From positions 1 to 39,542 of IMG/VR virus record IMGVR_UViG_3300032931_000509: a stretch of DNA of 39,542 nucleotides; one strand, given 5' to 3'. The translations under genes and the position numbers were made by a program. The notes under the pieces are model-generated. The model did not search any database. It was not told the DNA's origin and worked only from the letters and a program-made list of their open reading frames with translations. Shown in pieces: positions 4,401 through 34,036 of the stretch; position 1 is the first letter of the stretch, and every line of letters starts with the position of its first letter. This DNA is from a virus.

Positions 4401-7400
4401 CAGCAATCAAACTACTTATATCTGCATTAGTTAATCCTAATGTCTTGGCTTTTCGAGTAACTTTTACCTGCTTGCCCGCCGCACCGCCCTGCAGAACCGG
4501 CCGGCCTAAAAGGTCTGTCTGCCTCTTTGCAACCTTTCCCGTCACCGACTCCCCGAATATATCCTCGACCGTTCTGAACCCCTTGCCCTGCAGGGATGAC
4601 TTGATCTTCGCAAGAATTTTCCTGATCTTCTCGAATATCTTTCGTATTGCGTTCGTTGGCGCCTTATTCTCTTTATAGAACCGCCCGAACGCCGCGGCCT
4701 CCAGCTCCTCGCCCCTCAGTCCGGGCCCGTACTTATCCATCAGCGTCGCCAGGTCATCGTCGGTCAGTCTGCTTCGAAGTAAATGCCAGCCCTCATGTGC
4801 CCCCGTCTCAATATCCGCCCCGAGCGCCAATTGGATCACCTGCCGCTGGCCCTTAGTCATTGCCGCCCCGGTCGCCTTGCCCTGCCGCCTCTGGAATGGA
4901 ACATCGTCCTCGTACTCTATCTCTTCGACCTTCTCGACCTGAGCCTCGATACCATTGGCCTCAAGAACGTCCTTCGCCGCGTTCTGGGCCGCGAGCTGGT
5001 TCTCAGCCAATATCTGCTCGGTCGCCAGCCTTTCGAGTTCCGCATCCTGCTCATCTTCCGAAAGTTCGGCGATCTTCTGCATCTTATCGGCGTTCACAAA
5101 CTCATCCATCACCGACTCGATGGGAACATCGTTCCGCTCCGCCCATTCGGTAATCATCTCGTTAATCTCGATATCCGATGATCCGTGCCGGAGCATGCGG
5201 AACTTCTCGGCTAACATCTCGGCATCCGGGTATCCGCTGGCTGCGAAATTATTTAGTGCTGCCGTATTAAGGCCGGAAGCCTCGGCGCCCGATTCGAAGG
5301 CATCGGCCACCCGCTGCACGAACTCCGACAGTTCCATATCACCGTGGGTATCGTACTCGCCCTGCTCCGTCTCTGTGTAAAGGCCCTGCTGAACGGCGAC
5401 GTCCCATGCCGTCGCCCGGCCGCTCGTGGCATCGGCACGGTCGAAGGTGAACATCTTCTGAAGTTTCGTCTTGAACTTGCCCGGTTTCATCTCCCCGATT
5501 ATCGCCTCGACCTCACCCCGCCCTGACTCCTCGACGTAATAAAATCCCGGCCCGATCTTCCGGCCTGAAACATCCTGTGCCGCCACCTCATTCTGATAAA
5601 TATCGTGAGCCTTAATCCTCTCCGCCGTCTCCTTGATAAGTGATTTTCGACGTTTCTTGGTAATCCCGGAAAGTTGCTCATCCGTTTCGCCCGCTTCGCG
5701 TTCCTCCATCTTCTCGCGAAGCGAGTCAATTTCTGATTTACGATTTACGATTTCCGCTTGTTTTTCAAGTGCCTTGACCGGACTCAATTGTTTGGTGCTA
5801 AAAACGGCTAATGTTCTGCCTGCATTCACATCATCCTGATATTCTATGCTGTCATAACCCAACTTTTGAAGTTGTGGGATTATGATTTTCTCCCACGCTT
5901 CTTGTTTTTCCTCCTGTGTGTTTTGCCACCAGTAAAGCAAGTCCTTTGTCTCAATTATTCTCTTTGCCATTGGATTTCCTTTGTCCTTGAGCCCCGACAT
6001 GACTTTCAGACCTGCTTTATCGATTACTAATGTATTTTTCGCCTCCACGTTATAAACATCGACTTTTTCTAAATCTCTTTCCAATTGTCCCGATTCTTCA
6101 TACTCATTAAATTCTTCTTCTGTCTGAGGGATACCTCCCGCCACATATGTTGCGGCGACGTGTTTATTTTTGGTTAAAGCGATTAAACCCTTAGTCCTTT
6201 TTGCCTCTTTTAACACCCCCGCACCAGTATCACCGCGATAATAAATATTTTTCTCTGTGCCCTCTGTGGCTAATTCTTCACCCTCGGCGGGGGCTAAGTC
6301 GGGATACTCGACGACCGGCGTTACTTCTAAATCGGTTTGGGGACTCCAAAATATCCTGACTATGTGAGGTTTCCCTTTTATCTGAAGGCCGCCTTTATGT
6401 TTATAACCAACATAACCTTGCCCCTGTAACATTTTGGTAATTTCATTAAAAAGATATGTTCCCTCATCGGCGGATACATTATTATTAGTAAACTCTGCCC
6501 GCATCGTGTCATATAATTCACGAAGATTTTTGGTGTCTTCTTTATAGTCCGGATCAGTAAGTATGTAATCTAATTCCCATTCTTTAAGAAGTGGCATCAA
6601 GTCTGTTTTGATTTTAGCGTCTAAAGGTTTTTCCATATCATACAAATGTTGTTCTGCATCGGGCGAAACTTTCACTTTATATACCGTCGGGGTAGTTCCC
6701 TTGCCTTTTTTGGTATAACCCTCCGCAACGCTTTCAGTATCTGTGGTATAAAAACCTTGCCCATAGATATTCAATCCGTTCCAAGTATCTTCTAGTGGAT
6801 TCTTGATTTGTTCGATTGATTGACTTGTACCGTGGTAAACAGTTCCCCCTTGTTTCTCTGTACCCTCTGTGGCTAATTCTTCAGCCTCGCCAGGAGCGAC
6901 GATCTCGGTCGGGGCGGTCTCTTTGCCCTTACCGGCCTGAGTTTGGCCTTCCTGCGCAATGCTCGCCAAGTGCCGGGCCGCCTGCTCGTCTAATTCGTCA
7001 ATCTGCCGCTGAAATTCATCTTTTTCCGGACCTTTCTCCAATGCCTCGGCCTCGGCGGCCATTCTCTGCCTCATTTCCGACCACGGGATAATCAGGGCCT
7101 TAACCCTTCTTGCGTATTCCGCCGGCGATTTTACGTGGACTATGCCCTCTTCTTCCTCGGCTTCGTAAGGAACCGTTTCTTTCCATTTTTCTGTGATTTG
7201 GATTAGATTCAGGCCGCCCTGCATGCCCCATCCGCCGAGAAATCCGCCGGCGACTTCCCATGGTGACTGTTTAAGCGATCCTAAAATAGCCTTTTTCGCA
7301 GCCTCATAGCTCGACATTCCCTTCTTTGTGTTTTCAAGGATCCCGGCCCTCGTGTTTTGGAGCATCCCGGTAAAGAACTCCTCGGCCCCTTCCTTAAAGC

Positions 7401-8613
7401 CCGCCGATACAGCCTTCGTGCTTTCCCCTATTCCTTCGAGAAAATGAGACTCCATAAAGTACTCGATACCGCCGTCGGCAATACCGTGCAATGTGCTCCA
7501 AAAGAAGTTTTCCTCCTGTTCCTGGGCATGTTGAAATCCGCCGGCCGCCGATAATCCCGATAACAGGAGCAATCCCCGGTTGAGCTGGAACCCCTTGTTT
7601 AATATTTCCGCACCCGCCGTCGCGCCGCCCGAAAGGTACATTGCGAGAACGGACAGTGCGCTTGAAGCCAAACCCTCGCTTATTCGGCCCGCACCGTAGG
7701 AAACTGGGTCTATCTTCGCCAGGGCCGGATCGAGTGCTTCCCACCCGTAAGCCGCCTGCTCCGCCCATGCCAGCCGTGATTGCTTTCCCCACTTCGATAT
7801 ATTCTGCCCGGTCGATATAACGGCCTCGGCAAGTGGATTATAGATTTCATTTTTATTCTTCGATCCCAACTTTGAAAGCTGGTCAATCGCATACCCGCCC
7901 TGTTCGACGAACTGCCCAAGCCAGTCGTAAGCCGTGCCGCCAACCGCTCCGCCAACGCCCGACTCGGCAAAACGTGCAATTCCCTTGCCCGCCTCCTTCA
8001 AGGCTGTAATGGGATGCAGGGGAATATTCGGGGCCGTTTTCCTGGTAATGAAAGGCGAAAAACCGCCCATGCCCGCGGCAACGTAAGGATACCGCATAAT
8101 TTCTTTTCTTTCGGCGAGTTCCTGTTTCTCGCTTTCAATATCTACAACCGCTTTTGCAAAGCCGAGAATAACATCCGAGGCCTTCGTATTTACCGCTATT
8201 ATAGAAGCAGGAATGCCAACAGGAGAGGGCGATATCGAAAGAAACGATCCCAGAGTCGTCTTAAATGCATCAATCATCTGCTTGTTTATTTTCTCGTGGG
8301 TATCGTCGACAGGAAATGCTTGTCTTTTCAGACCTGTTTTTCCCTCGATTTCCGGGCCAAGATCATAAGCCAGTTCGGGCGGAATGCCGTACTGGCTGCT
8401 GTAATAAATGCTGTTTTCAATCTTATCGCGGAACGGCTCGAACTGCTCGGGCAAATCCTCCATCGATACACCCATCCCGCTGCCGGCGATCCGCTCGGAT
8501 ATATCCGGATCGGGTATCTCCGTCGATGTATCGTCCAGCACGAATCCTTCCGGCGGATCCTGTATTTCGTCTAATACGAATCCTTCCGGCGGTTTTATGG
8601 TATTGGTATCCAT
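1459..8613 (-). CDS. Giant polyvalent ejection protein: two ADP-ribosyltransferase-like domains plus metallopeptidase
   Basis: A 2384-residue protein in the slot of T7 gp16, so probably packaged in the head and ejected with the DNA. It starts with two near-identical PPEGFVLD repeats. Hydrophobic segments lie near residues 105-150 and 305-345. Two ADP-ribosyltransferase-like domains follow: residues ~592-770 (YHGTS, then GQGFYTT) and ~788-945 (YYRGD, then LGYDSIEYQ). Residues 1273-1277 are HEGWH, a zinc-metallopeptidase HExxH motif, with a possible third ligand in EELEAAAFG. The last ~400 residues resemble the conserved C-terminal region of large polyvalent proteins (LPD38-like) and end in a hydrophobic segment near 2255-2275. 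These domain types are known in polyvalent proteins thought to disarm host defences on entry. Repeats at 6251, 6854, 5728 and 3801 sit at domain joints. Its start overlaps the preceding stop by 19 nt. Confidence 0.8.
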   Translation of the reverse strand: MDTNTIKPPEGFVLDEIQDPPEGFVLDDTSTEIPDPDISERIAGSGMGVSMEDLPEQFEPFRDKIENSIYYSSQYGIPPELAYDLGPEIEGKTGLKRQAFPVDDTHEKINKQMIDAFKTTLGSFLSISPSPVGIPASIIAVNTKASDVILGFAKAVVDIESEKQELAERKEIMRYPYVAAGMGGFSPFITRKTAPNIPLHPITALKEAGKGIARFAESGVGGAVGGTAYDWLGQFVEQGGYAIDQLSKLGSKNKNEIYNPLAEAVISTGQNISKWGKQSRLAWAEQAAYGWEALDPALAKIDPVSYGAGRISEGLASSALSVLAMYLSGGATAGAEILNKGFQLNRGLLLLSGLSAAGGFQHAQEQEENFFWSTLHGIADGGIEYFMESHFLEGIGESTKAVSAGFKEGAEEFFTGMLQNTRAGILENTKKGMSSYEAAKKAILGSLKQSPWEVAGGFLGGWGMQGGLNLIQITEKWKETVPYEAEEEEGIVHVKSPAEYARRVKALIIPWSEMRQRMAAEAEALEKGPEKDEFQRQIDELDEQAARHLASIAQEGQTQAGKGKETAPTEIVAPGEAEELATEGTEKQGGTVYHGTSQSIEQIKNPLEDTWNGLNIYGQGFYTTDTESVAEGYTKKGKGTTPTVYKVKVSPDAEQHLYDMEKPLDAKIKTDLMPLLKEWELDYILTDPDYKEDTKNLRELYDTMRAEFTNNNVSADEGTYLFNEITKMLQGQGYVGYKHKGGLQIKGKPHIVRIFWSPQTDLEVTPVVEYPDLAPAEGEELATEGTEKNIYYRGDTGAGVLKEAKRTKGLIALTKNKHVAATYVAGGIPQTEEEFNEYEESGQLERDLEKVDVYNVEAKNTLVIDKAGLKVMSGLKDKGNPMAKRIIETKDLLYWWQNTQEEKQEAWEKIIIPQLQKLGYDSIEYQDDVNAGRTLAVFSTKQLSPVKALEKQAEIVNRKSEIDSLREKMEEREAGETDEQLSGITKKRRKSLIKETAERIKAHDIYQNEVAAQDVSGRKIGPGFYYVEESGRGEVEAIIGEMKPGKFKTKLQKMFTFDRADATSGRATAWDVAVQQGLYTETEQGEYDTHGDMELSEFVQRVADAFESGAEASGLNTAALNNFAASGYPDAEMLAEKFRMLRHGSSDIEINEMITEWAERNDVPIESVMDEFVNADKMQKIAELSEDEQDAELERLATEQILAENQLAAQNAAKDVLEANGIEAQVEKVEEIEYEDDVPFQRRQGKATGAAMTKGQRQVIQLALGADIETGAHEGWHLLRSRLTDDDLATLMDKYGPGLRGEELEAAAFGRFYKENKAPTNAIRKIFEKIRKILAKIKSSLQGKGFRTVEDIFGESVTGKVAKRQTDLLGRPVLQGGAAGKQVKVTRKAKTLGLTNADISSLIAVKGLTHKVAAKLEASGYLTKGQISYLGGTIDRDMNDPTFTYQEKLNSIYVSLKEFIRDDIEIIAPTEEKDILAAPQASAQTERKKLGDKPATLIQGNNVDVFLETASKGEVANAVQRLTLFYQEMCRKNPDIFEKLPPLQTLYDEAPAGTKLYSPEHLRMLVGGLQNVIKMFTPEEQVKLITGGAAEAIEKQSKIENLKFETSGQRLRREAELRAQIEGRKARLKAQQALIPSKTRKKGPAIRRFKINIREVTPALRPDLLPEHLDKVIGSAIPGAEELPKSTRTLVRPVYDKEWFDRNMAVKGRDVRDKASSQAKRAWIALEKKFTPMSTRLFNIAPKLFQATRKYVYDQMTRTVWLSDEVSPFVHDIKKMDKTDRRQMDLALKNGINWKIAELTEKYGIQADYEKARAALDEIYEAAKDVGIKIEYMKNYWPRILSDKEGFLMYFQGRDDWSIIEEMIKKRAEQAGREIRDMTPDEIAQDINVLMRGYQLQNLMLSRPGPAKERTVESVTAELDSFYEDSLTAVFKYIKLMTAKIGEREFFGRETKLIQALRKTQRARLTRLTKLKRRVGLKGAPEETYKEHISKTYEAWMATNERLTRLKARPLTDTIGGYIDRVRRAGLIQPAQEKQIQDILMGIFDPTGMGRITSMISSGVYIDTLNSPLQAITQLDEFAYSFYKSPWHSIPALITTIARRSEVTSRDIGIVSIGEEFQGPSMHKALSTLLKSIGFEQIDRLNKENDINTVLRKYRSQARNAELNPDFVKRMQRVFGEEYQNVIADLKKGEITDNIKYLLFNELLDIQPLAISEMPESYAKAGSWRLAYSLKSFYIRRLDYVRNECFKDMKSKDTFARGFGKLVWLTFAFALMGCGSDLLKDFIRGRKFSLSDSMTDNILRMVFFSKYQAWRTREKGFGTAILEGWRPPTKAIDALSRDIINTAMGKDRGWELWRSVPIVGEEYYWWFGQGSQKKNQRGMRKIIR
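3801..3828. repeat. AAATCGAAAATC-type repeat inside the polyvalent gene
   Basis: A/T-rich short-period repeat of the AAATCATAAATC family, read in frame as KIENLKFE. It lies at a joint between a more A/T-rich stretch (about 3840-4450) and the G/C-rich downstream part. Confidence 0.5.
5728..5755. repeat. AAATCGTAAATC repeat closing the second ART-like domain
   Basis: Three units of the AAATCATAAATC family, encoding EIVNRKSEID immediately after the end of the second ADP-ribosyltransferase-like domain (FSTKQLSPVKALEKQA). Confidence 0.6.
6251..6279. repeat. CTCTGTG-family repeat, linker before second ART-like domain
   Basis: 29 nt that differ by a single base from 6854-6882. Encodes EELATEGTEK just before the second ADP-ribosyltransferase-like domain (IYYRGD). 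Belongs to the CTCTGTGTCCTCTGTGGC family that is intergenic elsewhere in the window. Confidence 0.8.
6854..6882. repeat. CTCTGTG-family repeat, linker before first ART-like domain
   Basis: Second copy of the 29-nt linker repeat, one mismatch to 6251-6279. Encodes EELATEGTEK immediately before VYHGTS, the opening motif of the first ADP-ribosyltransferase-like domain. Confidence 0.8.
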
Positions 8614-10615: not shown

Positions 10616-11049
10616 AATCTCCTGATATACAGATAAAATTCCTTCGTCGCCCGGCGCTGACGCTCGAAGCCTATGTGGTTCAACATTATCTGCGACGCGT
10701 TGAATCCTATTCTCGATCTCGACCTGATCTTCTTTAAACCGTACTTCTCGGCTATAATCTCCGGCATATCACGCATCGCTCTCAGTGCCTCTTTCCAAAA
10801 CGAGCACGAATGTTCGACGTCTTTATCCACTACGATCCAGATATCGCCCAGGCCCGGCCGGGTCAGCATTACACCGGCCGCCGCTATCAATTTGCCGTTA
10901 TACTCGGCGGCGTAGGCAGGCCCCCAGTCCATGTTCAATTTCGCCCACTCCATGATGCGTTCGCGTCCGCAGTTGCGGAGCGTCTCATCCATCGAGTTCT
11001 CGGCCAATAAAATCAAATCCTCAAGATGCGCCACTCGGAGCTTTATCAT
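10612..11049 (-). CDS. GNAT-fold acetyltransferase-like protein, T7 gp13-like
   Basis: A 145-aa protein with the GNAT strand-helix pattern. It opens with MIKLRVAHLEDLILLAENS, has a central sheet with LIAAAGVML and IWIVVD, and ends with an N-acetyltransferase-like NASQIMLNHIGFERQRR helix and strand. T7-type phages carry a GNAT-fold protein (gp13) at this position, needed for internal core assembly, so a structural role is more likely than free acetyltransferase activity. No Shine-Dalgarno is present: an A/T repeat (11050-11083) abuts the start codon directly. Confidence 0.7.
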   Translation of the reverse strand: MIKLRVAHLEDLILLAENSMDETLRNCGRERIMEWAKLNMDWGPAYAAEYNGKLIAAAGVMLTRPGLGDIWIVVDKDVEHSCSFWKEALRAMRDMPEIIAEKYGLKKIRSRSRIGFNASQIMLNHIGFERQRRATKEFYLYIRRF

Positions 11050-11083
11050 ATTTATTATTTACTATTTATTATTTACTATTTTT
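11050..11083. repeat. AATAGTAAATAATAAAT repeat used as a leader and as a 3' end
   Basis: About four units of a 7-8 nt repeat fill the junction between two genes. On the minus strand it supplies the last codons and TAG stop of the gene ending at 11062, and then abuts the ATG at 11049 with no ribosome-binding site. Confidence 0.8.
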
Positions 11084-11409
11084 GTATGTTGTTCCCGAAT
11101 CCAATCATCTAACATCTTCTCCGCTCCTATTTGTGCTTCTATTCGTGTGCAAAAACCTTCTTTTCTCTTAATTGTATCTCCTTGACCCCATCTAAATGTT
11201 GCTTCATAACTAATATCATCACAACTACCCCATTGAATAGCTTCTAATTCCCAATTACCAACATTACAACTTGAACATTGGAAATGTGTCCACTTTTTCA
11301 AATCTTTTTCTGATATTTCAGATGCTGATCTTACCCATCTCCATTTATATTTCAACCGATGGTCGTTACTTAATAAATCATCCCCTTTATGTCTCTCGTA
11401 GTTATTCAT
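11062..11409 (-). CDS. Unknown 115-aa protein
   Basis: I do not recognise this protein. It is hydrophilic and carries a CSSC pair near residue 45 and further Cys residues. Trp is frequent (KWRWVRS, NWELEAIQWGSC, FRWGQGD). Its start overlaps the nozzle gene stop by 4 nt (ATGA), so it is co-translated with the tail nozzle. Its last codons (IVNNK, stop) are encoded by an A/T repeat, so the original C-terminus may have been lost or replaced. Base composition is more A/T-rich than the neighbours, suggesting a late acquisition. Confidence 0.65.
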   Translation of the reverse strand: MNNYERHKGDDLLSNDHRLKYKWRWVRSASEISEKDLKKWTHFQCSSCNVGNWELEAIQWGSCDDISYEATFRWGQGDTIKRKEGFCTRIEAQIGAEKMLDDWIREQHTKIVNNK

Positions 11410-13763
11410 TTTTCCACTTCATAATCGACGATAATTCCCAGCACCGTCAACGGCACTGGGTACGAATCCTGTATGCACATATCCCCGGCAGTCTCGAACC
11501 CGCCGGTGAAACTTATCTTCTTATCGCCCGTGAATAACGGTGTCGCCGCCTCCATTGCATCGGAATTGTCCCTGAATACGTAAGAATCGTAATCCGTCCA
11601 CGTCGGGCCTATCGAGCAGCTCAGCGACTCGAAGAACCTCAGCGTTGTAGCCGAGATCCGCTTGGTCCTGCCCTGCAGCGCCCCGCCCGTTGTCAGGAAC
11701 TCCAGCTTCATCGGCTCCAGTTTCGCGGTATAAGGCAGTCCGATATGCACCCTGTTGTAGTAATCGTCCAGGGTCACTGTATTGGCGTCCACGGTATAAT
11801 CGCCCGCGTACCCGCCGTCGCCCGCGGCGACAACCGCCTTGTCCTCTAAGTGGTCTAAAGTTGTAAACGTATTCTCGACCTGCTCGACCGTCCCGCCCGA
11901 GGTATAGGCGGTGAACGTAACGGAATTAATATCGACCGCATCGGACAGGTCCCGCAGCTCAAAACTCGAACCCGTAACCGTGTGGACCGTATAGACCTGG
12001 TAATTGACCTCATCCATCCCGCCGACCCCGGCGAACCGAACCTGGTCGCCATCGGCAAACGTATGATCCGCCGCCGTTACAACCGCAGGGTTCGCCTGCG
12101 TTATATTCGTTATCGAAACCGCCGCACCTCCGTCGAACGATAACCCGCAGTCTACGAAGAATGCCGAATCCTGATCCGCGAACTCTATCGGCTGAAACTG
12201 CTCGATATACCGCTTCTCGGACCCGCCGATTTCACGCTTGATTATTACCCAAACCTCATCTTCCGGATCGCCGGAAACCACTGCCACACTCTCACAGTCA
12301 CCGTCGAAAACGTACCGGCTCCATCCTAAAATCTCCTGGTTGTCCTCCAGTACGAGGGCAAGCAGCTCCCCGTTATCGCAGACCGACCATAAAATTGATA
12401 ACGGGCTCCGCTGGTACGCTAATTGGGTAATACCGGTATCGGTAATGTGCTCGCTCAGCAGGGTCAGGTCCTCGCTCCGCCAGTTATCGCTGGCGAAGTC
12501 GAATTTCAGCCTCATTATCTTCTCGTTATTGCGCTGCGCGTAAATGACCTGGTTATTGACTAACAAACCCTGTATCTCGGCGCTGCCGTAGGTCGACTGC
12601 CGATTGAGGGTCGAGGCTGATAATGGCTTGCCCGCCGGCGTTTCCAATTTCCACTCATCGCCCGTAGTCCCGATCATCATGTCATTGTGTGAGACGAGCC
12701 AGCGAATAGTATTGACCTGATCGGCTGCAAGCGTGCAGGTATAGGCCGATGTTTCGAGATTCGTAACAAGGAAATTATGCCAGTCGTCCGTCTGAGAGAA
12801 CCATATCGTATCGGGCTCGGCCGCCGTGCCGCCGAAGCATAAACGCTCCCTGTGCAACGTTACCGCGGCCGGCCAGCCCCGGTAATTGCTCCACGAGCCC
12901 TCCGCCCATAAATAAGTTGCAATCGTACCGCCGAGATCGTAAAGGACCGTAGCATTCGCCAATCGCGGAGTCGAGACACCCGTAATCGATACTATTCCCT
13001 GCTTGACGTAATTGGCCGCGACCATCGTATAAGAGCAACTGAAGTACTGTTCGTCCCGGTGAACGTAAACCCCGTACTGATCCGTCATCTTAAGCCGGTA
13101 CTCTGCGTCGGCAACGGTTTCGGTATCGCGGAAATCCATATTCTGCGGATTGTCGCTCGTTGAAGTAAACGTATATACATCCTGCCAGTTGGTGCCGTCG
13201 TAAGACCTCTGTAAATACAGTATTCCCTTCCATCTACTGCTCGTAAGTACGGAGAAATCCTGGCCCATGGCGACTAATAGGGTTGGCGAATTCTGGTCGG
13301 CCTGCGCAACATAAAGCGAATCGGCGGTAAATGACCCGGTTACAGTATTGGCATCGACGGTATGCGACAGTTGCCACAACGCGCCCACGTGTTCGGCGTA
13401 GAAGGTATCCAAACTGGCGGTGATCGTAATGTCCCCGGTAGTCGCCGAAGGCGTCAGCGTCCAGCCGACCGAGGTATTCTGGGCCATGAACGGGCCGCGC
13501 ACGAAGTTCACATCGGCTATCGTCCAGTTCGTATCGCCGAACCTTTGCAGTATCTGCGGATGATAGTCCGGGTGGGCCAGGTACATTACGTTCGCCGACT
13601 GGATGTACTGGACTTCGAACAGGTCCGCCGCAGCGTAAGGTGAAGCAATCGAATAGGCCGAGCCATCCTGCAGTATCTGCTCACCCTGCCCGAAAGCAAT
13701 TACGCCCAGAATGCAACTTATTAAAATCTGAAATCTTAAATCTGAAATCTTAAATCCTATCAT
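11406..13763 (-). CDS. Tail nozzle protein (gp12-like), large C-terminal portion, with signal peptide
   Basis: 785 aa. From residue ~27 onward it reads like the main body of podovirus tail nozzle proteins: ILQDGSAYSIASPYAAADL and EVQYIQSANVMYLAHPDYHP early, then WPAAVTLHRERLCFGGT with FSQTDDWHNF, then MIGTTGDEWKLE. A domain near residues 555-635 resembles the E1-FCCH-like insert common in such proteins (ANPAVVTAADHTFADGDQV, then YTVHTVTGSSFELRD). In relatives this body continues directly from the N-terminal domain, encoded here by the separate upstream gene 13773-14141. Residues 1-26 are instead a signal-peptide-like segment (ISCILGVIAFGQG), partly encoded by a repeat. AAAGGTGAG serves as ribosome-binding site. 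It should form the tail tube end with the gp11-like adaptor. Confidence 0.8.
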   Translation of the reverse strand: MIGFKISDLRFQILISCILGVIAFGQGEQILQDGSAYSIASPYAAADLFEVQYIQSANVMYLAHPDYHPQILQRFGDTNWTIADVNFVRGPFMAQNTSVGWTLTPSATTGDITITASLDTFYAEHVGALWQLSHTVDANTVTGSFTADSLYVAQADQNSPTLLVAMGQDFSVLTSSRWKGILYLQRSYDGTNWQDVYTFTSTSDNPQNMDFRDTETVADAEYRLKMTDQYGVYVHRDEQYFSCSYTMVAANYVKQGIVSITGVSTPRLANATVLYDLGGTIATYLWAEGSWSNYRGWPAAVTLHRERLCFGGTAAEPDTIWFSQTDDWHNFLVTNLETSAYTCTLAADQVNTIRWLVSHNDMMIGTTGDEWKLETPAGKPLSASTLNRQSTYGSAEIQGLLVNNQVIYAQRNNEKIMRLKFDFASDNWRSEDLTLLSEHITDTGITQLAYQRSPLSILWSVCDNGELLALVLEDNQEILGWSRYVFDGDCESVAVVSGDPEDEVWVIIKREIGGSEKRYIEQFQPIEFADQDSAFFVDCGLSFDGGAAVSITNITQANPAVVTAADHTFADGDQVRFAGVGGMDEVNYQVYTVHTVTGSSFELRDLSDAVDINSVTFTAYTSGGTVEQVENTFTTLDHLEDKAVVAAGDGGYAGDYTVDANTVTLDDYYNRVHIGLPYTAKLEPMKLEFLTTGGALQGRTKRISATTLRFFESLSCSIGPTWTDYDSYVFRDNSDAMEAATPLFTGDKKISFTGGFETAGDMCIQDSYPVPLTVLGIIVDYEVEK
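13721..13757. repeat. AAATCTGAAATCTTAAAT repeat at a gene-splitting signal peptide
   Basis: Four units of an about 9-nt repeat beginning at codon 3 of the nozzle gene and encoding ISDLRFQIL, the n-region and start of the hydrophobic core of its signal peptide. Confidence 0.75.
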
Positions 13764-13772
13764 GGCTCACCT

Positions 13773-14141
13773 TTATTTATAGAATCTGATCGTTTTATCC
13801 CCGAACTCCAAAACGTAATTTGTGCCCGTCGAGTGCCCGAACGGGATCAGCCGGCCCTTAACATCGCTGTCCGCGGACTCTGCTATATAGTAAGTGCCCG
13901 GCCTCTTCGACGCCCCGCCCTGGGCCTGGCAATAGAAATTTTCCATTACCCGCACACCCGAATACGCCGCCTTCAGGTCCACCCTGGCCGCCATCTCACC
14001 CGTTATCTCACCGGAATTGAAGGAGTTTATTATCGCCTTCTCCGCGTATGTTAAGCCACAGAGGACACAGAGGACACAGAGAATAATTATCGACACGGAT
14101 TTACACTGATTTACACTGTTTTTTTTATTCTTATTCTTCAT
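13773..14141 (-). CDS. Detached N-terminal domain of the tail nozzle, with signal peptide
   Basis: 122 aa. Residues 35-122 match the N-terminal domain of podovirus nozzle proteins: INSFNSGEITGEMAARVD, then VRVMENFYC, then KRPGTYYIA, then RLIPF, and finally VLEFGDKTIRFYK. In relatives the chain continues, but here it stops at FYK and resumes in the next gene as GEQILQDG. Residues 1-33 are a signal peptide with TYA cleavage site; residues 9-29 are encoded by two repeat families (NSVNQCKSVS from TTTACACTG-type repeats, LCVLCVLCG from CTCTGTGTC-type repeats). It is a paralogue of the N- and C-terminal parts of the gene at 14195-15634. Whether it pairs with the downstream nozzle body is an inference. 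Confidence 0.75.
   Translation of the reverse strand: MKNKNKKNSVNQCKSVSIIILCVLCVLCGLTYAEKAIINSFNSGEITGEMAARVDLKAAYSGVRVMENFYCQAQGGASKRPGTYYIAESADSDVKGRLIPFGHSTGTNYVLEFGDKTIRFYK
14052..14120. repeat. Two adjacent repeat families encoding a signal peptide
   Basis: 14052-14084 is a 9-nt period repeat (CTCTGTGTC on the minus strand) and 14092-14120 a 10-11 nt period repeat (AGTGTAAATC on the minus strand). Together they encode most of the signal peptide of the gene 13773-14141. Confidence 0.85.
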
Positions 14142-14157
14142 TTTAATAACCTTTTTT

Positions 14158-14189
14158 TAACCGTGTTAATCCGTGTTAATCAGTGTCTA
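14158..14189. repeat. TTAATCCGTG repeat between the nozzle paralogues
   Basis: Three units of a 10-nt repeat (CCGTGTTAAT) fill the spacer between the propeller-containing paralogue and the small nozzle gene. The near-identical sequence at 15640-15672 precedes the other paralogue. Confidence 0.8.
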
Positions 14190-14194
14190 AAAAT

Positions 14195-15634
14195 TCAGTT
14201 GCTCTTAAAAAATGCCATTTTCTTGTCGCCTAACGCTATCACGTAAGGATTGGCGTCCTCACATTCGAACGGGATCAGGCGCTTAGCCTCAGCATCGGAT
14301 AACCCGGTCTCTATCTCGTATCCTGGAACCGCCGGAAACCCCGGGGTTCCTGCGTCCATAAACGGAATGCTGCTGCCTTCTACACCATATGCCACATCAT
14401 TCTCTACCCGGTAGTCGGCAATATAAGTGAGATCGGTATCAAGAAGCCATATTCCCGCACCAAACTCGCCGCCGTCGTAATAACCTGAAGAAACAGCTAT
14501 TCGACCTTCCCAATCAAACCAAATTCCATACGAATCAAGTCCCGTATCGTAACTTGCTATGAGATTCAGAGACGTATCAAATTTGTAGACACTTGCATAT
14601 GCCCCGCCTACTCCGTGATCGTGTCTACTACAGGCAACGTAGATAAAATCTCCTATTTTGATAATACCACGACCTTGACCTCCAGTATTGAAGTAATTAT
14701 AATTAGTTCCACCAAAATCTATTGCCGAAACAGTCGTATCAACTGTGAGAGCTTTTCCAGTACAATATATTCTTTGATTTGTGCTATCTATTAGGATATC
14801 TCTCGACAATATACCTACGTCCAGAATCAATACTATACTACCATCAGAGTTCCATTGTATAACAGCACCACTAAGACCCATAGTATAAACATTATCATCA
14901 TCATCAACTGCTATCGTATAATAACTTCCACCCTTATGGACATGCCATACCTCATCCCCGGTTGCTGCATCAAATTTAATCAAACGGTAAGGACCTGACA
15001 CTACTGCATATAAATATTTTTCATCATCTGTAAAACATAAATCACCAACCATGTCACCAGTTTGAGGCCATCCGTCGTCAGGGACGAAAAAGGTATTATC
15101 CGCATTCAAATCCGTATCCCAACGAGTAATGCATGGTTCTGTTCCCGCACCGTGCCCGGAAACAACTATTCCATCACTTGTTACAGCAATGGAAGAGTTC
15201 AAATAACCACCACCTAAACCCTCATAATTCAGAACGGTATAATTAGGATCAAGCCAAACCACCGAATCACTATTCGAAACTACAGTCGCCTCATCCCGAA
15301 ACTGTGCCGGCGGCACTGCCGGCACTTCCGGCACTTCAGGCACAATTACAAGAGAATAATTGTTCGCGATATAATACGTTCCCGGCCGCTTCTCTACCGG
15401 GCCCCATGGCTTGACGAACATATTTTCCAGTACCCGGGCCGCGGAATAATACTTTTCGACGTCCGTCCTGGCCTCAAGCTTCGGTGTGATCTCGCCGTTT
15501 TTGAACGAGTTGATCATCGCCGTCTCGGCGTAGATTGAGCCACATAGAGCACAGAGAACGAATAAAATTATCAGACACGGATTTACACAGATTTCACTGT
15601 TTTTCTTTTTATTATTTTTTATCTTAATTTTCAT
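14195..15634 (-). CDS. Nozzle N-terminal-domain paralogue with a propeller-like insertion and signal peptide
   Basis: 479 aa. The first 90 residues (signal peptide cut at IYA, then MINSFKNGEITPKLEARTD, LENMFVK, KRPGTYYIA) and the last 28 (RLIPFECEDANPYVIALGDK and on) match the small nozzle gene 13773-14141. Between them, residues ~91-440 are an inserted module of repeated short strands: SSIAVTSDGIVVSGHG, CFTDDEKYLYAVVSG, IAVDDDDNVYTMG, IDSTNQRIYCTG, WFDWEGRIAVSSG. This is the pattern of a six- or seven-bladed propeller of the NHL/PQQ type. Pro/Val-rich linkers flank it (VPEVPEVPAVPP, and PGFPAVPG). The insert is clearly more A/T-rich than its flanks. The insertion replaces nine residues of the compact version. 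A carbohydrate- or protein-binding tail decoration is plausible. Confidence 0.75.
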   Translation of the reverse strand: MKIKIKNNKKKNSEICVNPCLIILFVLCALCGSIYAETAMINSFKNGEITPKLEARTDVEKYYSAARVLENMFVKPWGPVEKRPGTYYIANNYSLVIVPEVPEVPAVPPAQFRDEATVVSNSDSVVWLDPNYTVLNYEGLGGGYLNSSIAVTSDGIVVSGHGAGTEPCITRWDTDLNADNTFFVPDDGWPQTGDMVGDLCFTDDEKYLYAVVSGPYRLIKFDAATGDEVWHVHKGGSYYTIAVDDDDNVYTMGLSGAVIQWNSDGSIVLILDVGILSRDILIDSTNQRIYCTGKALTVDTTVSAIDFGGTNYNYFNTGGQGRGIIKIGDFIYVACSRHDHGVGGAYASVYKFDTSLNLIASYDTGLDSYGIWFDWEGRIAVSSGYYDGGEFGAGIWLLDTDLTYIADYRVENDVAYGVEGSSIPFMDAGTPGFPAVPGYEIETGLSDAEAKRLIPFECEDANPYVIALGDKKMAFFKSN

Positions 15635-15672
15635 TGTCTTTTAACCGTGTTAATCAGTGTTAATCCGTGTCT
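15537..15672. repeat. Repeat cluster spanning a gene start and signal peptide
   Basis: Three blocks: 15537-15562 (CTCTGTG family, coding), 15571-15600 (AGTGAAATCTGTG-type, coding) and 15640-15672 (TTAATCAGTG type, leader). The block order matches that at 14052-14189, showing that the two genes and their leaders arose by tandem duplication. Confidence 0.8.
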
Positions 15673-15674
15673 CA

Positions 15675-18275
15675 TCACGGATCATCTCCTTCCGCATTCA
15701 GCGTCGCCGTCCCGCCGCCTCCGCTGGCGGCGGTCCGGTCTATCGTTATAACCCCCGGCGGCGGTGTGACCGGCTGGTTGTCGTAAACATCCATAGGAAA
15801 GTACCCCATGCCCCACAAGATCACCACATCGTCCACCGCGGGTGTGAATGAGAATGGCAAATCGACCTCCACTATCCGCCCCGCCGTCCATTCATAGACC
15901 GTTCTCGACTCCCAGTGGGCATCCGTAGCATCCCGAACGTAGATCGTCGCACCGCGATAGGCGTCCGCGGCCGCTGCGCCCGCCGTGAGTGTGAAACTGT
16001 TGGCGTCGTTATCATCTGCCACCGTAGTCGTTAAGGCCCGCATGACGTCCGTAACGGCCTTAATCAAAGTGATGTTCGGGTCTAACTGCTGGACTTCACC
16101 GCCGAAACTGGCCTCGGTTGTATAGGTTGCCATCAAAGCGTTCCAAATCGCCGCCGCGTGCTCGGCGTCGGTATCGTAGGCCGCCGTATCAGCCAGAACA
16201 TCCTCCGCCGCCTGGCCATAAGTCCCCGCCCCGCCGTAACTGCCCGTCGCCGCGTTCCAGATCGCCGCCGCGTACTCCGCCGCCGTATCGAAAGCCGAGG
16301 TATCGGCCAGAATTAAAGTGATGTTCGGATCGAGGCCACCCATTTCTCCACCGAAGGTTGTTTCGCCCGTATAACTTGCAACTAAAGCACCCCAAATTGC
16401 CGTTGCGTATTCAGCGTCTGTATCATAGGCAGTTGTATCCGTTAGAATTGAATCTATATCCGTATCGTGGTTATCAACATCGGAACTGCCCATGATTTTA
16501 TTCGTCGGCAGTTTGCCTTGAATGGCCGCTGTATCCTCCAGAATAGATACCGTCTCAGCCTTCAGTGCAATTATATCGGCGGCAATGTCAGTACCAGTCG
16601 CGTTTGTGATCGTCGCTGCGTAAATCGCCGAGAGTAAAGTTGCCTGTGGTGGAAATTCCAAGTTCCAGACTACTGGAGCGGAAACTGTGAAATCATCGAC
16701 AACGTGAGTATCACCACCATAAGTTAACGTGAACGTATGCGGGCTATAAGTCAGAAGTGCTTCGGATGTTCCAATCCACTTCTTGTAATCTATCGTCTGT
16801 TCGGCAATGTCACCACCTGAATCTGTTGCCACACTAAATTCCGAAGCCGCTGCAACGTAAGCGATTCCAGTTACCCATGCCCCTGTACCAGCACCACCAA
16901 CACATCCTGCCTTCGCAGCATAAGCCGCCGTCGTCAGCACCCATTTGTTTGCAGTAAGGTCTGTAGCGAATACTCCCGATGTGTGGTCGAGGATACATTT
17001 ATAGAAAGTCGAACCGGCATCAGTCGAGACTACATTCCCAAACGTCTGGCATTGAACTGTGACCGTTTCGAGGTCTGCACCATCTTCATCTGCTACGTGG
17101 ATATTGCAAGTTTGCTTTCGAGTGCAACTGGCAGTTGCATTATTTATAATAATACTACTTATTGTAAAATCAGGGTCTATTAAATTTAATGAAGTATCTA
17201 CCTCAGTAACATAAACTTCCACATAGCCAGAATCAGTGATTTTAAGATTGGATATCGATGGCGTAGCACTGCCATAAGAAGACAACCCATAAAACACATC
17301 GTGCAGATGAATATTAGAAAATGTAGGAGTAACATATGCAGTGATGCTTTGCAACCCCATGCTTTTAACATCTGTCCATGTTGTCGTCCCACCACCAATA
17401 ACCACTACAGCTCCTGGAAAACCGGATATACCGGAAAATATACTATTGCGAGCAATCCATGTTCCATTAGTCTGTTGAAACCATGCTCCGATTACATCTC
17501 GCCGAATAATCATCGAACCATATATACCAAACTCAGCAGTCGCACTGGCTAAGAAAGCAAAATTTTCATCTAAATCGAACGACCATGCCGAACCCGTTTT
17601 ACTCCAATCACCTGAAGATTCACCTAAATCGAGTGTTGCGTTTGCTTTAATAGAAAAGTGGGAGTAATTTTCCCAGTATACAAATTCATGTGCAGACCGA
17701 AAATAAGTGGCCGTCGAGCCATCACCGAACTCAACATCACAATCAATAAGATAACTTCCATCAGCAACAATCTCCCACACCACACCCCAGATGTCCTGTG
17801 TAACCGCTATCGTACCATCGGCCCAGACAGTTCCGCCACCAGCGGCATTGTCAGAACAATCAAGATTAGTTATCGTCTTAAACCGTTTGGTAGTTGTATA
17901 TGTGCCGTTTCCTGCCGTAACGTCGAGAGATTCCGTCTGTGCCGTGTCCCACGCATCCGTTCCTGTGATGAAGATAAAATCCGCCTCGGCAGTCTTGGCA
18001 GCAACGATACATTTGATTATCAAAGCCTTTGAATGAGTAGGTCTTATCTGGTAATCGAGAGTAACATTTGCCGCACCATTCTCTGCGACGTTCAGGACAG
18101 TCCCCGTCCCTGCCTGGTCAGCCGTATACATATCGTTGAACGTAGCCGGAGCACCGGATGTTCCATCCGTAACAACTATCTTATTCGTCGCTACTGTATA
18201 TGCGAACGTACCAACGCCGAAAGCCGGACTAACAGCAAATAGCAAACAGCAAATAGAAAATAGCAGCCTTTTCAT
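15675..18275 (-). CDS. Large secreted beta-rich fibre/appendage protein
   Basis: 866 aa, probably a virion-associated fibre or host-surface binding protein. The signal peptide ends at AFG; its core LLFSICCLLFAV is encoded by a CTATTTGCTGTTTG repeat. Residues ~150-380 have the short-strand rhythm of a right-handed beta-helix (SMIIRRDVIG, NGTWIARNSIF, ISNLKITDSG). Near the C-terminus are three tandem units of about 45 residues (LADTAAYDTDAEHAAAIWNAL type), encoded at about 16060-16450. A compact C-terminal domain (RIVEVDLPFSFTPAVDDVVI) follows. It overlaps the preceding gene by 4 nt (ATGA). The function is inferred from position among tail genes and beta-rich composition. Confidence 0.65.
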   Translation of the reverse strand: MKRLLFSICCLLFAVSPAFGVGTFAYTVATNKIVVTDGTSGAPATFNDMYTADQAGTGTVLNVAENGAANVTLDYQIRPTHSKALIIKCIVAAKTAEADFIFITGTDAWDTAQTESLDVTAGNGTYTTTKRFKTITNLDCSDNAAGGGTVWADGTIAVTQDIWGVVWEIVADGSYLIDCDVEFGDGSTATYFRSAHEFVYWENYSHFSIKANATLDLGESSGDWSKTGSAWSFDLDENFAFLASATAEFGIYGSMIIRRDVIGAWFQQTNGTWIARNSIFSGISGFPGAVVVIGGGTTTWTDVKSMGLQSITAYVTPTFSNIHLHDVFYGLSSYGSATPSISNLKITDSGYVEVYVTEVDTSLNLIDPDFTISSIIINNATASCTRKQTCNIHVADEDGADLETVTVQCQTFGNVVSTDAGSTFYKCILDHTSGVFATDLTANKWVLTTAAYAAKAGCVGGAGTGAWVTGIAYVAAASEFSVATDSGGDIAEQTIDYKKWIGTSEALLTYSPHTFTLTYGGDTHVVDDFTVSAPVVWNLEFPPQATLLSAIYAATITNATGTDIAADIIALKAETVSILEDTAAIQGKLPTNKIMGSSDVDNHDTDIDSILTDTTAYDTDAEYATAIWGALVASYTGETTFGGEMGGLDPNITLILADTSAFDTAAEYAAAIWNAATGSYGGAGTYGQAAEDVLADTAAYDTDAEHAAAIWNALMATYTTEASFGGEVQQLDPNITLIKAVTDVMRALTTTVADDNDANSFTLTAGAAAADAYRGATIYVRDATDAHWESRTVYEWTAGRIVEVDLPFSFTPAVDDVVILWGMGYFPMDVYDNQPVTPPPGVITIDRTAASGGGGTATLNAEGDDP
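18232..18266. repeat. AGCAAATAGCAAAC repeat encoding a signal-peptide core
   Basis: Four units of a 7-8 nt repeat, read on the minus strand as the hydrophobic core of the signal peptide of the 866-aa protein. A shorter relative (GCTATTTGCTG) lies at 26109-26126. Confidence 0.8.
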
Positions 18276-18601
18276 TTCTTTGCCGGTCTCCAGTCCAGGA
18301 GTTTCGCTACGTTCGGGTCGCTAAAGCCGGTATTGGCATCCTTAACGACCTGCCACGCCTTAATCAACGTCGCCTTCAGCTCGGCATCGACAGTATTGAA
18401 CGAGCCGCTTTTCGCAATCTCCTGAAGTTGTGTACTCGTTTCCTGAATGGTACTTCTCGCGTTTTGCAATAATGCCCGTGCCGTAATGACTTTCTGCCGC
18501 TGCTCGGCATCGGTCACAAGCGAGCCAAACTTCGTATCAACTGCCGCCCAGACCGCCGAAGCAATTAACAGAACCAGTCCGATTTCAATTATTCGTTTCA
18601 T
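18272..18601 (-). CDS. Small secreted helical protein
   Basis: 109 aa, not recognised. Residues 1-20 form a textbook signal peptide (MKRIIEIGLVLLIASAVWA). The mature part is a predicted long helix or coiled coil rich in Gln, Ala and Lys (AEQRQKVITARALLQNARS), ending in DWRPAKK. An AGGAGAAAGA ribosome-binding site lies upstream. The stop overlaps the next start as ATGA, coupling it to the 866-aa fibre protein, so a chaperone or trimerisation partner for that protein is possible but unproven. Confidence 0.6.
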   Translation of the reverse strand: MKRIIEIGLVLLIASAVWAAVDTKFGSLVTDAEQRQKVITARALLQNARSTIQETSTQLQEIAKSGSFNTVDAELKATLIKAWQVVKDANTGFSDPNVAKLLDWRPAKK

Positions 18602-18643
18602 TCTTTCTCCTAAATATCAACAAGAATACCGTAAGGCGTTTCA

Positions 18644-18730
18644 TCAATATCTCCAGGGGTCGAAAAACATCAAACCCACACCGAATAAAAGTAACAGCAT
18701 AACTACTATTGTTTTTAGTATTCGTTTCAT
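18644..18730 (-). CDS. 28-aa single-membrane-span micro-protein
   Basis: A short reading frame beginning MKRILKTIVVMLLLLFG and ending in DPWRY. It is followed by a second one of 19 aa that starts in its double stop (TGATGA; 18644 down to 18585, beginning MKRLTVFLLIF) and overlaps the next gene. Both look like free-standing signal anchors. The ribosome-binding site is weak (AGAAAGAAAAAG). They may be real small membrane proteins or relics of duplicated signal-peptide starts. Confidence 0.35.
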   Translation of the reverse strand: MKRILKTIVVMLLLLFGVGLMFFDPWRY

Positions 18731-18740
18731 CTTTTTCTTT

Positions 18741-18771
18741 CTCTGTGTCCTTTGTGATCTCTGTGGCTAAA
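18741..18771. repeat. CTCTGTG-family repeat
   Basis: Intergenic copy of the 9-nt period repeat ending in CTGTGGCTAAAAT, just after the stop of the 315-aa secreted protein. Confidence 0.75.
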
Positions 18772-18774
18772 ATA

Positions 18775-19722
18775 TTAGTACGGCCGCCCGTAAACCTTCA
18801 GATTGCCCGCCTCCTCGCCCGTCGCGGCGTCGCAGTCGTAGAACACGAACTGGATATACTCTAATCCCGCCAAGTCGATAACGAGCATTGCCACCTCGTT
18901 ATCACCCGAATTAAATACACCTACACCCGGCTCGCTTACTACCGTGCCGTTATAGCCCGGCCACTTCGTCTGCTCGTCGATCGCTATCGTATCCGCCCAG
19001 AAGGCCGGGTTGATCTGGATCGTGGCGTCCGTGCCGTTGCCGGTCGAGGTAGTGATATCGCAAACCACCGAATCGTTGCCGGTAACTGTCGTGATATTCA
19101 CAATCTCGCTCGTAAAACCCGTGCCCGTCACGCGGGCCATCATCCCGGCCACGACATCGTCGAAACTATTGCTCAGTGTGAATGTCTCCGATGCGTGGGT
19201 ATAGGCCACGCCCGTCAAACTTACCAGCTCGCCGAGCGCATCGCCGCCGTCCGGGTACTTTACTACCGCCTGCGTGCCGAGGACACCGTTGCCCTCGCAG
19301 ATATTCTGCTGCATCCCGTTGCCCCTGGCCCACCCGACCACGTTGAAGCTGAACGTATCGTCGGTATCGTTGAAACAATTGCCGCAAATTACAAAGACCC
19401 ACTTCGTCCCGGGCGCGTATGGTGTATCGCTGCCCACGCTGCGGGAAGGTATTCGAAACGCTCCGCCCAAAGCGACCCCTGTATCGTCCATACCATCGTA
19501 GTCGCACGTCAGTGTCGCGCTGACGCCGGTCCGGTCGTAGACGGCGGCAAAGGTATCGCCATCCTGGCTGGCCTTCGCCCTGACAAGGTTCCAGCCTGTA
19601 TGGTACTGGTCCACCGGCTCGGCCCGGACAATCGGCATTAAACACACCACCATTGCGGCCGCCAGGACCAGCAAAACAGCTACCGCCGTTATCACCCTGC
19701 CATATCGTTTTATCGTTTTCAT
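18775..19722 (-). CDS. Secreted beta-rich protein of unknown function in the tail module
   Basis: 315 aa. Residues 1-35 are a long signal peptide (MKTIKRYGRVITAV, hydrophobic core, VRA cleavage). The mature part is Gly/Thr/Asp/Val-rich with short strands and a single central repeat-like segment (ARVTGTGFTSEIVNITTVTG), typical of phage decoration or fibre domains; it has two Cys in CGNC. AAGGAGA lies at good distance from the start. It is placed between the gp11-like adaptor and the small secreted protein, so it probably belongs to the virion or to a surface-binding layer. No family was recognised. Confidence 0.6.
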   Translation of the reverse strand: MKTIKRYGRVITAVAVLLVLAAAMVVCLMPIVRAEPVDQYHTGWNLVRAKASQDGDTFAAVYDRTGVSATLTCDYDGMDDTGVALGGAFRIPSRSVGSDTPYAPGTKWVFVICGNCFNDTDDTFSFNVVGWARGNGMQQNICEGNGVLGTQAVVKYPDGGDALGELVSLTGVAYTHASETFTLSNSFDDVVAGMMARVTGTGFTSEIVNITTVTGNDSVVCDITTSTGNGTDATIQINPAFWADTIAIDEQTKWPGYNGTVVSEPGVGVFNSGDNEVAMLVIDLAGLEYIQFVFYDCDAATGEEAGNLKVYGRPY

Positions 19723-19733
19723 TTTTTTTCTCC

Positions 19734-20396
19734 TTAAATATCAAATTCCAAATTATTCGGCCTCATAAACCCGTCCCGGATATCCTTTTGCCCATCCAGC
19801 AAATCCCGGCCTTCGATATCGACGTCCATACCCTCAAGCCCGTTGGCGTACCGGGCCGTATCCATCGCCGTATCCAAATCCCGCTGGAGCGACATCTTCC
19901 GGTAATCGTTCTCCGCTATCGGCGCGCACATTTCTATCGCACCCGTCAGGATGACGAGTTTCGTGAACCACGCCCGCCAACTCCCGGGATTCGTGCGCAG
20001 AACGATGTACTTAACGAATACTTCATCCTGATCGCACAAAAGAACATCATCCTGTACAACCTTGCCGTTCTCGGTATGGCAATAGACCCCGATCTCGTAT
20101 TCGTAATGGATGTCCCTGTAGTTTTCATCAATCGTCGATATGACCCTCACGCATCCGTCCGGCAGCTTGTATTGATGGTCGTAGCCCAATGCCGGATCCG
20201 TCGCTACCTTCGCTAATTCCGCGTGGGCCGTCGCGAAATGCCATTCAATCGGCAAAGCAAAGACCTCGGCGACGATACCGTCGAAGATATCGTTCGCCAG
20301 CCGCTGGCTCTTCGAATCGGTGCCTAACGAAGCCAGCGTCGTTTCCCCGATACATATCATCATCCGGTTAACTACGTAAAGTTTATCGAACGCCAT
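19734..20396 (-). CDS. Tail tubular protein A (T7 gp11-like adaptor)
   Basis: 220 aa. The pattern fits the adaptor ring that connects the portal to the nozzle in short-tailed phages. It has an N-terminal helix with SKSQRLANDIFDGIVAEVF, then PIEWHFATAHAEL, a sheet with YKLPDGCVRVISTID, then VFVKYIVLRTNPGSWRAWFTKLV and a C-terminal helical region. There is no signal peptide, unlike the genes on both sides. GCGGAG supplies the ribosome-binding site. It should interact with the portal (28735-30489) and with the nozzle proteins. Confidence 0.75.
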   Translation of the reverse strand: MAFDKLYVVNRMMICIGETTLASLGTDSKSQRLANDIFDGIVAEVFALPIEWHFATAHAELAKVATDPALGYDHQYKLPDGCVRVISTIDENYRDIHYEYEIGVYCHTENGKVVQDDVLLCDQDEVFVKYIVLRTNPGSWRAWFTKLVILTGAIEMCAPIAENDYRKMSLQRDLDTAMDTARYANGLEGMDVDIEGRDLLDGQKDIRDGFMRPNNLEFDI

Positions 20397-20410
20397 TTGT
20401 CACTCCGCAA

Positions 20411-20442
20411 AATCATAATTAATAAATCATAAATCATAAATT
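20411..20442. repeat. AATCATAAATCATAAATT repeat
   Basis: Four units of an 8-9 nt A/T repeat lying directly after the hairpin at 20447-20491 in the direction of transcription and before the gp11-like start. Confidence 0.7.
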
Positions 20443-23500: not shown

Positions 23501-24304
23501 CACCTTGTCGCTGTGGACGGCCGCCACGGTAAACGTTCCCTGGAACTCGTTGCCGACAATCAAAAGCCTGTTTACTATACCGGCATCACCGTTGATAGCC
23601 TGGTTGCACCCGGTAGTCGCTACGAGACTCATAAACTTGTTGCCTGCGATAGTCACAAAGTCACTGCCGGTAGCAAGCGTAATCATGTCTAAGAATTCCC
23701 ACGTTCCGGTAGTTGGAGTTACCCATTCGCAACCTGAGATTGTCAGATAATCGGCGCCTGCCGTAAGCGTTACCGAACTTACCACGTCAGTTGCTCCGCA
23801 AACAAACCGCAGGTTCTTAAGCATCACATTGGCTACTGAAATGTCGATGGTAGCCCCCGCGTGCGTGTACGTAAACGTCGGCATGTTGGAACCCTCGCCG
23901 ACTCCTTCGACGGTCACACCTATCTTATCGATTGTGGCGCCTAACGCCGCCGTCGACCACGTCTCCGCGTGGCCCTGGGCAACGTAAACTATATCCCCGT
24001 TATTGGAAGTGCATAGTGCAAAAGCCTCATCCAAAGTTGCTAAAGCGTTCGACCAGGAGCTGCCGTCGCCCGCGATGGTTAATCCGCTGTCGACGTAGTA
24101 AATATTTCCCGTCCCGATATTCGTCGCGCCGCCGCCGGCCGTCAGGGCATCTATCTCCTTCGCCCACCGCCAGCCGATGTCCTTCGCATTGCCGGTCCAC
24201 CAGTCGCCGTTCGGCTTACTGTAAATGTTCCATGATGTGGCGCCCTGGCCGAAGCATGGAAGAGCGATTGCGAGAATCGCCATGATTAGAATTGTTCGTT
24301 TCAT
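20501..24304 (-). CDS. Secreted triple-repeat right-handed beta-helix fibre
   Basis: 1267 aa, beginning with a signal peptide (MKRTILIMAILAIALPCFG). It contains three homologous units of about 270 residues at ~68-336, ~548-815 and ~858-1124. Each starts with YYVDSG or WYVDSG, then SW and NGDIVYVAxGHAET, a GVTIxGxG turn, many N-x-F/I ladder positions (MLKNLRFVCGA; HIENIRFLAGA), and ends DPGSxxCxxN. This is the signature of right-handed parallel beta-helices, often glycan-binding or glycan-cleaving. The C-terminal ~120 residues form a separate beta domain. G/C hairpins flank the gene at 20447 and 24342, so it may be an inserted cassette between cement protein and adaptor. The function as head fibre or receptor-binding appendage is inferred. 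Confidence 0.7.
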   Translation of the reverse strand: MKRTILIMAILAIALPCFGQGATSWNIYSKPNGDWWTGNAKDIGWRWAKEIDALTAGGGATNIGTGNIYYVDSGLTIAGDGSSWSNALATLDEAFALCTSNNGDIVYVAQGHAETWSTAALGATIDKIGVTVEGVGEGSNMPTFTYTHAGATIDISVANVMLKNLRFVCGATDVVSSVTLTAGADYLTISGCEWVTPTTGTWEFLDMITLATGSDFVTIAGNKFMSLVATTGCNQAINGDAGIVNRLLIVGNEFQGTFTVAAVHSDKVNTNMLVAGNVVHQATAGQFGLEFTEAATGILAENLVYTNAVATAIDPGSLACFENYIINTIDLSAELFPPESAIATVTAGSADDILKKLYYTADGTDAFPATVANDSTLAKIMGIGAAATVATYDNTTMSLQALNVDLDAILSDTALWDTTAKLQTILFGSAAAGATAAQVAALTTQRMRNSCEVNAGGATNFTSVGLAGFGTNYFETGWSAICVYDAGAAAGAPEGEIRDITAYVTATGVFTVAPAFSQAVTTGDLVMLVRTTETNPDVVTMLGGSGSVWYVDSGKTGTSATAAELGKTWTNAYTTVALAIAAATASNGDVIYVAPGHAETLAAAVAINVAGVTIKGFGEATLMPTITLDTAADQWDVSVANVHIENIRFLAGATDILKGIDLAATADGCHIKNCIFEDATTSEILNAIDVAAGCDDVTIEGCQILTPGNAATEGIKLTGAVDNIKIINNWIFGTFTVAGIWSDQICTNVLIKDNVVTQLTSGQLAVEFTAATTGNLTNNTLSSPLFATMLDPGSMICSGNMGSSVLDEAGIEIPISALTTDITETGDGSNLERLEYLQNKSDDILAGLRMAGGTIGDVYYVDSVTGNTANSGISWALAEALISQGYGDVTANKGDIVFVAPGHTETHSADAQVALATAGVTIIGLGDGTDMPFVDMQHANSSFDVTGASNTIKGINFHSSTAATAIGVHVAAADFTMEDCLFTDAGNFEFAITVSLDASAELSTIRNCRLLSVAGTTGATSGIAAATGVIDRLIIENCRIWGDFTNAGIYSDQINTNALIKNNSVTNNNSGQCAIEFTGATTGDLIDNMLSGSTYGSILDPGSLRCFGNKQCVGVDTGAEDIPLIAGKSYTRCMKLGDLNALDDLFLVTGAPIVVTSFVGKATVACGGATTLEIQVDADDTWDYDLSTGVDVDTIDAGGILAFTAAIGESVLTVQAVGSSGSMGPGINWWVEEGMLESNVSGGGSTGEIEWYMIFTPVENGCEVIPQ

Positions 24305-27941: not shown

Positions 27942-27957
27942 ACTATTGTCCTTTCCG

Positions 27958-34000: not shown

Positions 34001-34036
34001 CTGATTTATGATTTCCTATTTACGATTTTCGATTGC
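34001..34036. repeat. AAATCGTAAATAGGAAATC repeat
   Basis: Four units of the AAATCATAAATC family between a 36-aa basic gene and the small terminase start. Confidence 0.7.

Follow-up and report, generated by a model that had tools for sequence, protein, structure and literature searches.

The window analysed here is the whole of IMG/VR virus record IMGVR_UViG_3300032931_000509 (39,542 nt). On its minus strand two consecutive genes, in the same frame and with in-frame TAA and TGA codons between them, encode products of 122 and 785 aa that each begin with a signal-peptide-like segment (Table 1). Read along the minus strand, the small gene ends in ..VLEFGDKTIRFYK and is followed by TAA, AGGTGAGCC and then the large gene's ATG. 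The small product has the C-terminus ..TIRFYK, and the large product starts with MIGFKISDLRFQILISCILGVIAFGQ, a signal-peptide-like stretch after which it resumes with GEQILQDGSAYSIASPY. The word GCTCACC (plus strand) stands in exact copies on either side of the intruding piece, where the initial annotation had placed it, and is the sole exact repeat of at least 7 nt between the two flanks examined. The piece measures 79 nt between the repeats and 86 nt with one copy included; of the earlier description of an intrusion of about 86 nt containing a stop, a start, a repeat and a signal peptide, the size, start, array and signal peptide stand, but the TAA lies just outside it. The outer copy, in the context AAAGGTGAGCC-ATG, can serve the large gene as a putative ribosome-binding site, a role already proposed for it and one that its position upstream of the ATG fits. 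No second contig with this junction was found among other contigs, and the split is known from a single assembly. Elsewhere in the window, positions 1459-8613 encode a protein of 2384 residues that weakly matches DUF3990 and a polyvalent-protein ADP-ribosyltransferase, below curated cut-offs; no tRNA was found in the window.

Table 1. Features of the split nozzle locus and its neighbourhood (window coordinates).
Feature	Position	Strand	Remarks and basis
Nozzle N-half gene, 122 aa	13773-14141	minus	Own signal-peptide-like N-terminus; PHROG 376, 8ck1_A, signal-peptide rule
Nozzle C-half gene, 785 aa	11406-13763	minus	Own signal-peptide-like N-terminus; PHROG 376, 8ck1_A
Intruding 79-nt piece between 7-nt repeats	13686-13764	minus	Start codon, 7-nt array and signal-peptide core
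Outer 7-nt repeat copy, GGTGAGC on minus strand	13765-13771	minus	Putative ribosome-binding position of large gene
Inner 7-nt repeat copy, coding G-E-(Q)	13679-13685	minus	Point where homology to relatives resumes
7-nt-unit array, 4.7 copies, AAATCTG on plus strand, 33 nt	13724-13756	minus	Translated within C-half signal-peptide-like segment
Signal-peptide-like segment of C-half, MIGFKISDLRFQILISCILGVIAFG	13689-13763	minus	Signal-peptide rule
Signal-peptide-like segment of N-half	14043-14141	minus	Core from 9-nt array 14057-14081, n-region from 10-nt array 14093-14122
N-half paralogue	14195-15634	minus	Signal-peptide-like N-terminus and beta-propeller-like insert; PHROG 376 columns 7-57, E 3.5e-18
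Tail adaptor gene, upstream	19734-20396	minus	No signal peptide; phrog_394 tail protein, E 4.3e-27

The two products match adjacent parts of one nozzle family. In profile matches the small protein takes columns 6-92 of PHROG 376 (E 1.6e-26) and the large protein columns 93-710 (E 7.3e-156), the two genes jointly covering the whole profile, and on the Carin1 nozzle (8ck1_A) they align to residues 13-97 (E 2.1e-09) and then, in two stretches, to residues 99-821 (E 7.1e-71), an adjacency that is certainly beyond chance. The unsplit relative L106, modelled with a pLDDT of 88, aligns with the Carin1 nozzle at Z 46.7 over 749 residues and with T7 gp12 at Z 28.5 over 544 residues, and the split maps to the point where strand 103-108 of this model ends. 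In a read-through model, in which the halves are joined by a linker into a single chain and are not two separate chains, mean pLDDT is 85.1 and pTM 0.77, while residues 126-152, corresponding to the insert, form a disordered loop with pLDDT below 50. This model aligns with Carin1 8ck1_A at Z 42.0, the 719 aligned residues being drawn from both halves (model residues 29-911), and with T7 9jyz_P at Z 28.4. The structure alignments use 28 and 26 hand-chosen rows free of long inserts. Propeller proteins align to approximately residues 67-655 of the read-through model, so that the N-half is predicted to supply the first strands of a propeller-like body.

Judged by profile matches and predicted structure, the small and large genes together make up a single T7-gp12-like tail nozzle, which bears out the split-nozzle claim of the initial annotation, and because two ORFs take the place of one polypeptide the system is filed here as a split variant of the podovirus nozzle. 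Carin1 gp36 (PDB 8ck1) and T7 gp12 have the same fold as the two halves combined. In Carin1 the nozzle gene adjoins the connector gene, and gp36 is a single gene without a signal peptide, whereas the window divides the nozzle between two genes that both begin with a signal-peptide-like segment. A nozzle in two adjacent genes (PHROG 20269 and 15566) also occurs in Xanthomonas phage SAC (locus L012, 1767-4870), but there the split lies elsewhere, between PHROG 376 columns 271 and 282, and no signal peptide is visible.

The nozzle is continuous in related phages, as had been supposed. A C-half match was found in 171 relatives; leaving aside the six without an N-half match, 164 of the remaining 165 carry both matches in one ORF. 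The sole broken nozzle among them, in L075, has a frame change inside an inserted domain; its two parts occupy 4223-5149 and 5215-7298, the second without a signal peptide. In a tree of 165 rows, from which 7 loci were omitted, the window falls in a seven-row clade (support 99) with L106, L107, L108, L014, L015 and L109, all six of which are unsplit and have signal-peptide-like N-termini, and thus provide the unsplit allele that the initial annotation had suggested looking for. The hinge in these clade relatives reads RFYKDGGQI or RFYKDSGQI, with no intrusion, and the intruding piece is missing at the hinge of L106, L107, L108, L014 and L015; the C-half shares 42-49% identity with unsplit clade relatives in the best segment of the match. 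In a second survey, with the N-half as query, none of 80 loci (five of them already in the first set) stops at the hinge; one locus has its stop 208 residues past it, and two run off their contigs. An old family trait of two genes meeting at the hinge is ruled out by these two surveys, and the comparison with relatives identifies the split as a derived state. Neither of the outcomes named in the initial annotation as refuting its reading was obtained: relatives lack a natural split at this junction, and the halves align to neighbouring parts of a single fold. The search for a host found none; a single genome scan yielded 7 loci, the nearer of which lie on MAG contigs assigned to Syntrophaceae and Syntrophorhabdus and are unsplit and without signal peptide; against IMG/VR, capsid and portal queries found no relative, and a terminase query found six loci.

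The position of the split is one at which nozzles frequently carry additional sequence. At least 16 extra residues are present at the hinge in 93 of 163 relatives, and the hinge inserts among the scanned relatives include Laminin_G_3 in L018 and L045 and E1_FCCH in L013. These alignments mark the nozzle hinge as an insertion hot spot, a feature that the initial annotation overlooked.

The intruding piece may have arrived through a target-duplicating insertion, template switching or local repeat growth. Growth of the array in place or via template switching, with the signal peptide made from the array plus local sequence and the 7-nt repeat due to chance and ribosome-binding-site selection, is a possible origin, although it stops short of being a probable one. 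It draws on the distribution of tandem arrays in the window: 17 of 29 arrays with units of 7-10 nt are close to a gene start, at most 60 nt before or 75 nt after it, against an expected 3.6, when every period-7-to-10 row is counted, overlaps are merged and gene starts are set by hand (an initial count with hand-picked arrays gave 16 of 24). Furthermore, of the eight tail genes that begin with a signal-peptide-like segment, six contain an array in their first 40 codons, a number reached in 1 of 20,000 random placements, and in L107 the start of the unsplit nozzle gene also bears arrays. On the other hand, L106 and L108 are almost devoid of such arrays, and array growth leaves unexplained the presence of the outer repeat at the matching hinge position.

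Arrays near gene starts, some of them directly before the start codon, are seen for instance at 11049-11081, 20410-20441, 27953-28019 and 34003-34034 of the window, and at 14092-14186 and 15570-15675 10-nt arrays flank two gene starts as imperfect inverted repeats. The TAACTGA heptamer repeats of Beggiatoaceae are likewise tandem 7-nt units close to start codons, with a few inside ORFs (MacGregor 2015, PMC4679880). The window arrays differ from these in their unit, in belonging to a phage and in that the array at the junction is translated within a signal-peptide-like segment; the words "phage" and "signal peptide" are absent from the main text of that paper.

The initial annotation had read the piece instead as a short mobile element inserted with a 7-nt target-site duplication, an origin that now appears unlikely. 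Its repeat is real, with exact copies at both ends of the piece, and the hinge gives it some context: the inner copy codes for hinge sequence partly present in relatives (the GGT codon in L108 and L015), and the outer copy is one base off the matching hinge place. The repeat is also uncommon at gene starts, GGTGAGC occurring in none of 1352 leaders and any 7-mer of the 26-nt junction in 12 of 1352, against 1.4% of random pairs; by this measure the repeat exceeds chance marginally. The reading of this repeat as a target-site duplication is weakly supported, array flanks often having such repeats: in six of the 15 window arrays an equally long direct repeat of different sequence is found within looser 45-nt flanks. 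Moreover, AGGTGA by itself fits a ribosome-binding site, no inverted repeat of at least 16 nt overlaps 13686-13764, and a plain duplication is insufficient in that the stretch from the last K codon to the outer copy, a single codon in relatives, reads TAAA in the window. Copying of the insert core from elsewhere in the window is ruled out, its signal-peptide core having no second copy there above the shuffled level; for the 7-nt array, the window holds look-alikes only.

The signal-peptide-like starts extend well beyond the split gene, a clade-wide pattern that the initial annotation missed. A hydrophobic N-terminal stretch precedes the conserved start in 34 of 165 nozzles, many with textbook ends such as ..LCSVAFAE, and on the tree this label requires 7 changes, against about 32 in shuffles. 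Starts of this kind are found in 34 of 54 upstream ORFs of positive loci and in 32 of 516 in the others, a count in which wrong start choices put some positives (L107, L014) among the negatives. From tree clustering and frequency, signal-peptide-like N-termini emerge as a trait that this phage clade inherits. The calls come from a home-made hydropathy rule for signal peptides, which flags 10 of 30 window genes, including the terminase small subunit, most likely a false positive; under this rule both halves and the paralogue have a charged n-region, a hydrophobic core and small residues near the cleavage site. Within the tail module of the window (116-1444, 11406-15634, 15675-19722 and 20501-24304, minus strand) most genes have signal-peptide-like N-termini, as is seen clade-wide, and in L107 such N-termini at 4445-5608 and 2967-3659 stand on repeats such as LCVLCVLCV and NADYADY. 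In a literature survey covering titles and abstract openings, with most subscription journals outside its coverage, no signal peptides on tailed-phage tail proteins and no comparable nozzle split were found.

It is doubtful that these hydrophobic N-termini are instead membrane anchors or assembly signals of tails assembled on the inner face of the membrane. Their distribution would suit such a role, as the genes that have them include the fibre, both nozzle halves, the paralogue and genes of 866, 109, 315 and 1267 residues, tail-tip and fibre genes among them, while capsid, portal, adaptor, large terminase and internal virion proteins have none; most of the N-termini, however, show the n-h-c layout and AXA-like end of cleaved signals.

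Upstream of the small gene lies a second N-half, which was overlooked in the initial annotation. This paralogue ends at the hinge common to the small gene (..KKMAFFKSN), and its propeller-like insert matches phrog_8401 (E 2.8e-05). It groups with the small gene (support 91/95), so that the N-half duplication probably followed or accompanied the split. In pairwise comparisons with 10 hand-chosen relatives, the N-half is 45-54% identical to the clade, whose members share 66-79% among themselves, and the C-half 44-50%, against 52-56% among relatives; the N-half has diverged beyond expectation, which could reflect relaxed constraint, and the two N-halves have done so to a greater extent than the C-half. 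The small gene nevertheless retains 13, and the paralogue 12, of the 14 positions conserved across the family, third codon positions differ most, and both halves keep most family-conserved residues. A broken nozzle, whether through gene decay or through misassembly and with a functionless small piece, would be in keeping with the faster divergence of the N-half and the single contig, but is very improbable when the new stop, ribosome-binding site, start and signal peptide fit together, conserved positions are kept with a third-position bias, a second N-half copy has the same end and the real break in L075 looks so different.

The favoured reading, which we consider probable as a whole, is that of a derived gene fission after which two exported, docking polypeptides form each nozzle subunit. 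In the ancestor, the nozzle would have been one protein with an export signal. A short piece would then have entered the insertion-tolerant loop that directly follows the final strand of the N-terminal part. Together with its flank this piece would have supplied a stop and a ribosome-binding site, then a start, and with it a tandem 7-nt array and a signal-peptide core. The nozzle is now produced as two polypeptides, both most likely exported through Sec, trimmed and then docked without a covalent link into each subunit; Sec export, cleavage and two-chain docking in the virion are what we infer from this arrangement. The mature N-termini expected from such trimming would lie at ..AFG/QGEQ and ..TYA/EKAI. 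Since signal peptides are heritable in the clade, the insert would have given the C-half its own predicted export signal besides breaking the gene, a signal that the C-half presumably needed for a nozzle whose assembly would take place outside the cytoplasm. That the C-half gained a signal-like start also suggests that such starts are useful, as there would be no need to gain a useless one.

A broader scenario, offered as speculation and unlikely to hold in every part, is that the clade exports tail parts via Sec and completes its tails beyond the cytoplasm, that the fission gave the second half its own signal peptide, partly from a tandem array, and that the N-half was thereby freed for duplication. 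A single C-half may then have two possible partners, a plain N-half and one that displays a propeller on the tail.

Tail assembly in tailed phages is generally placed in the cytoplasm. If true, signal peptides on the nozzle and other tail genes of a clade, retained between relatives of only about 35-50% identity, would break this rule. The split nozzle, with a signal-peptide-like start on both halves, makes the idea of export testable. The junction further suggests that a short tandem array, where it lies close to the start of a gene, can turn coding and help a gene to split into two parts with export-type starts.
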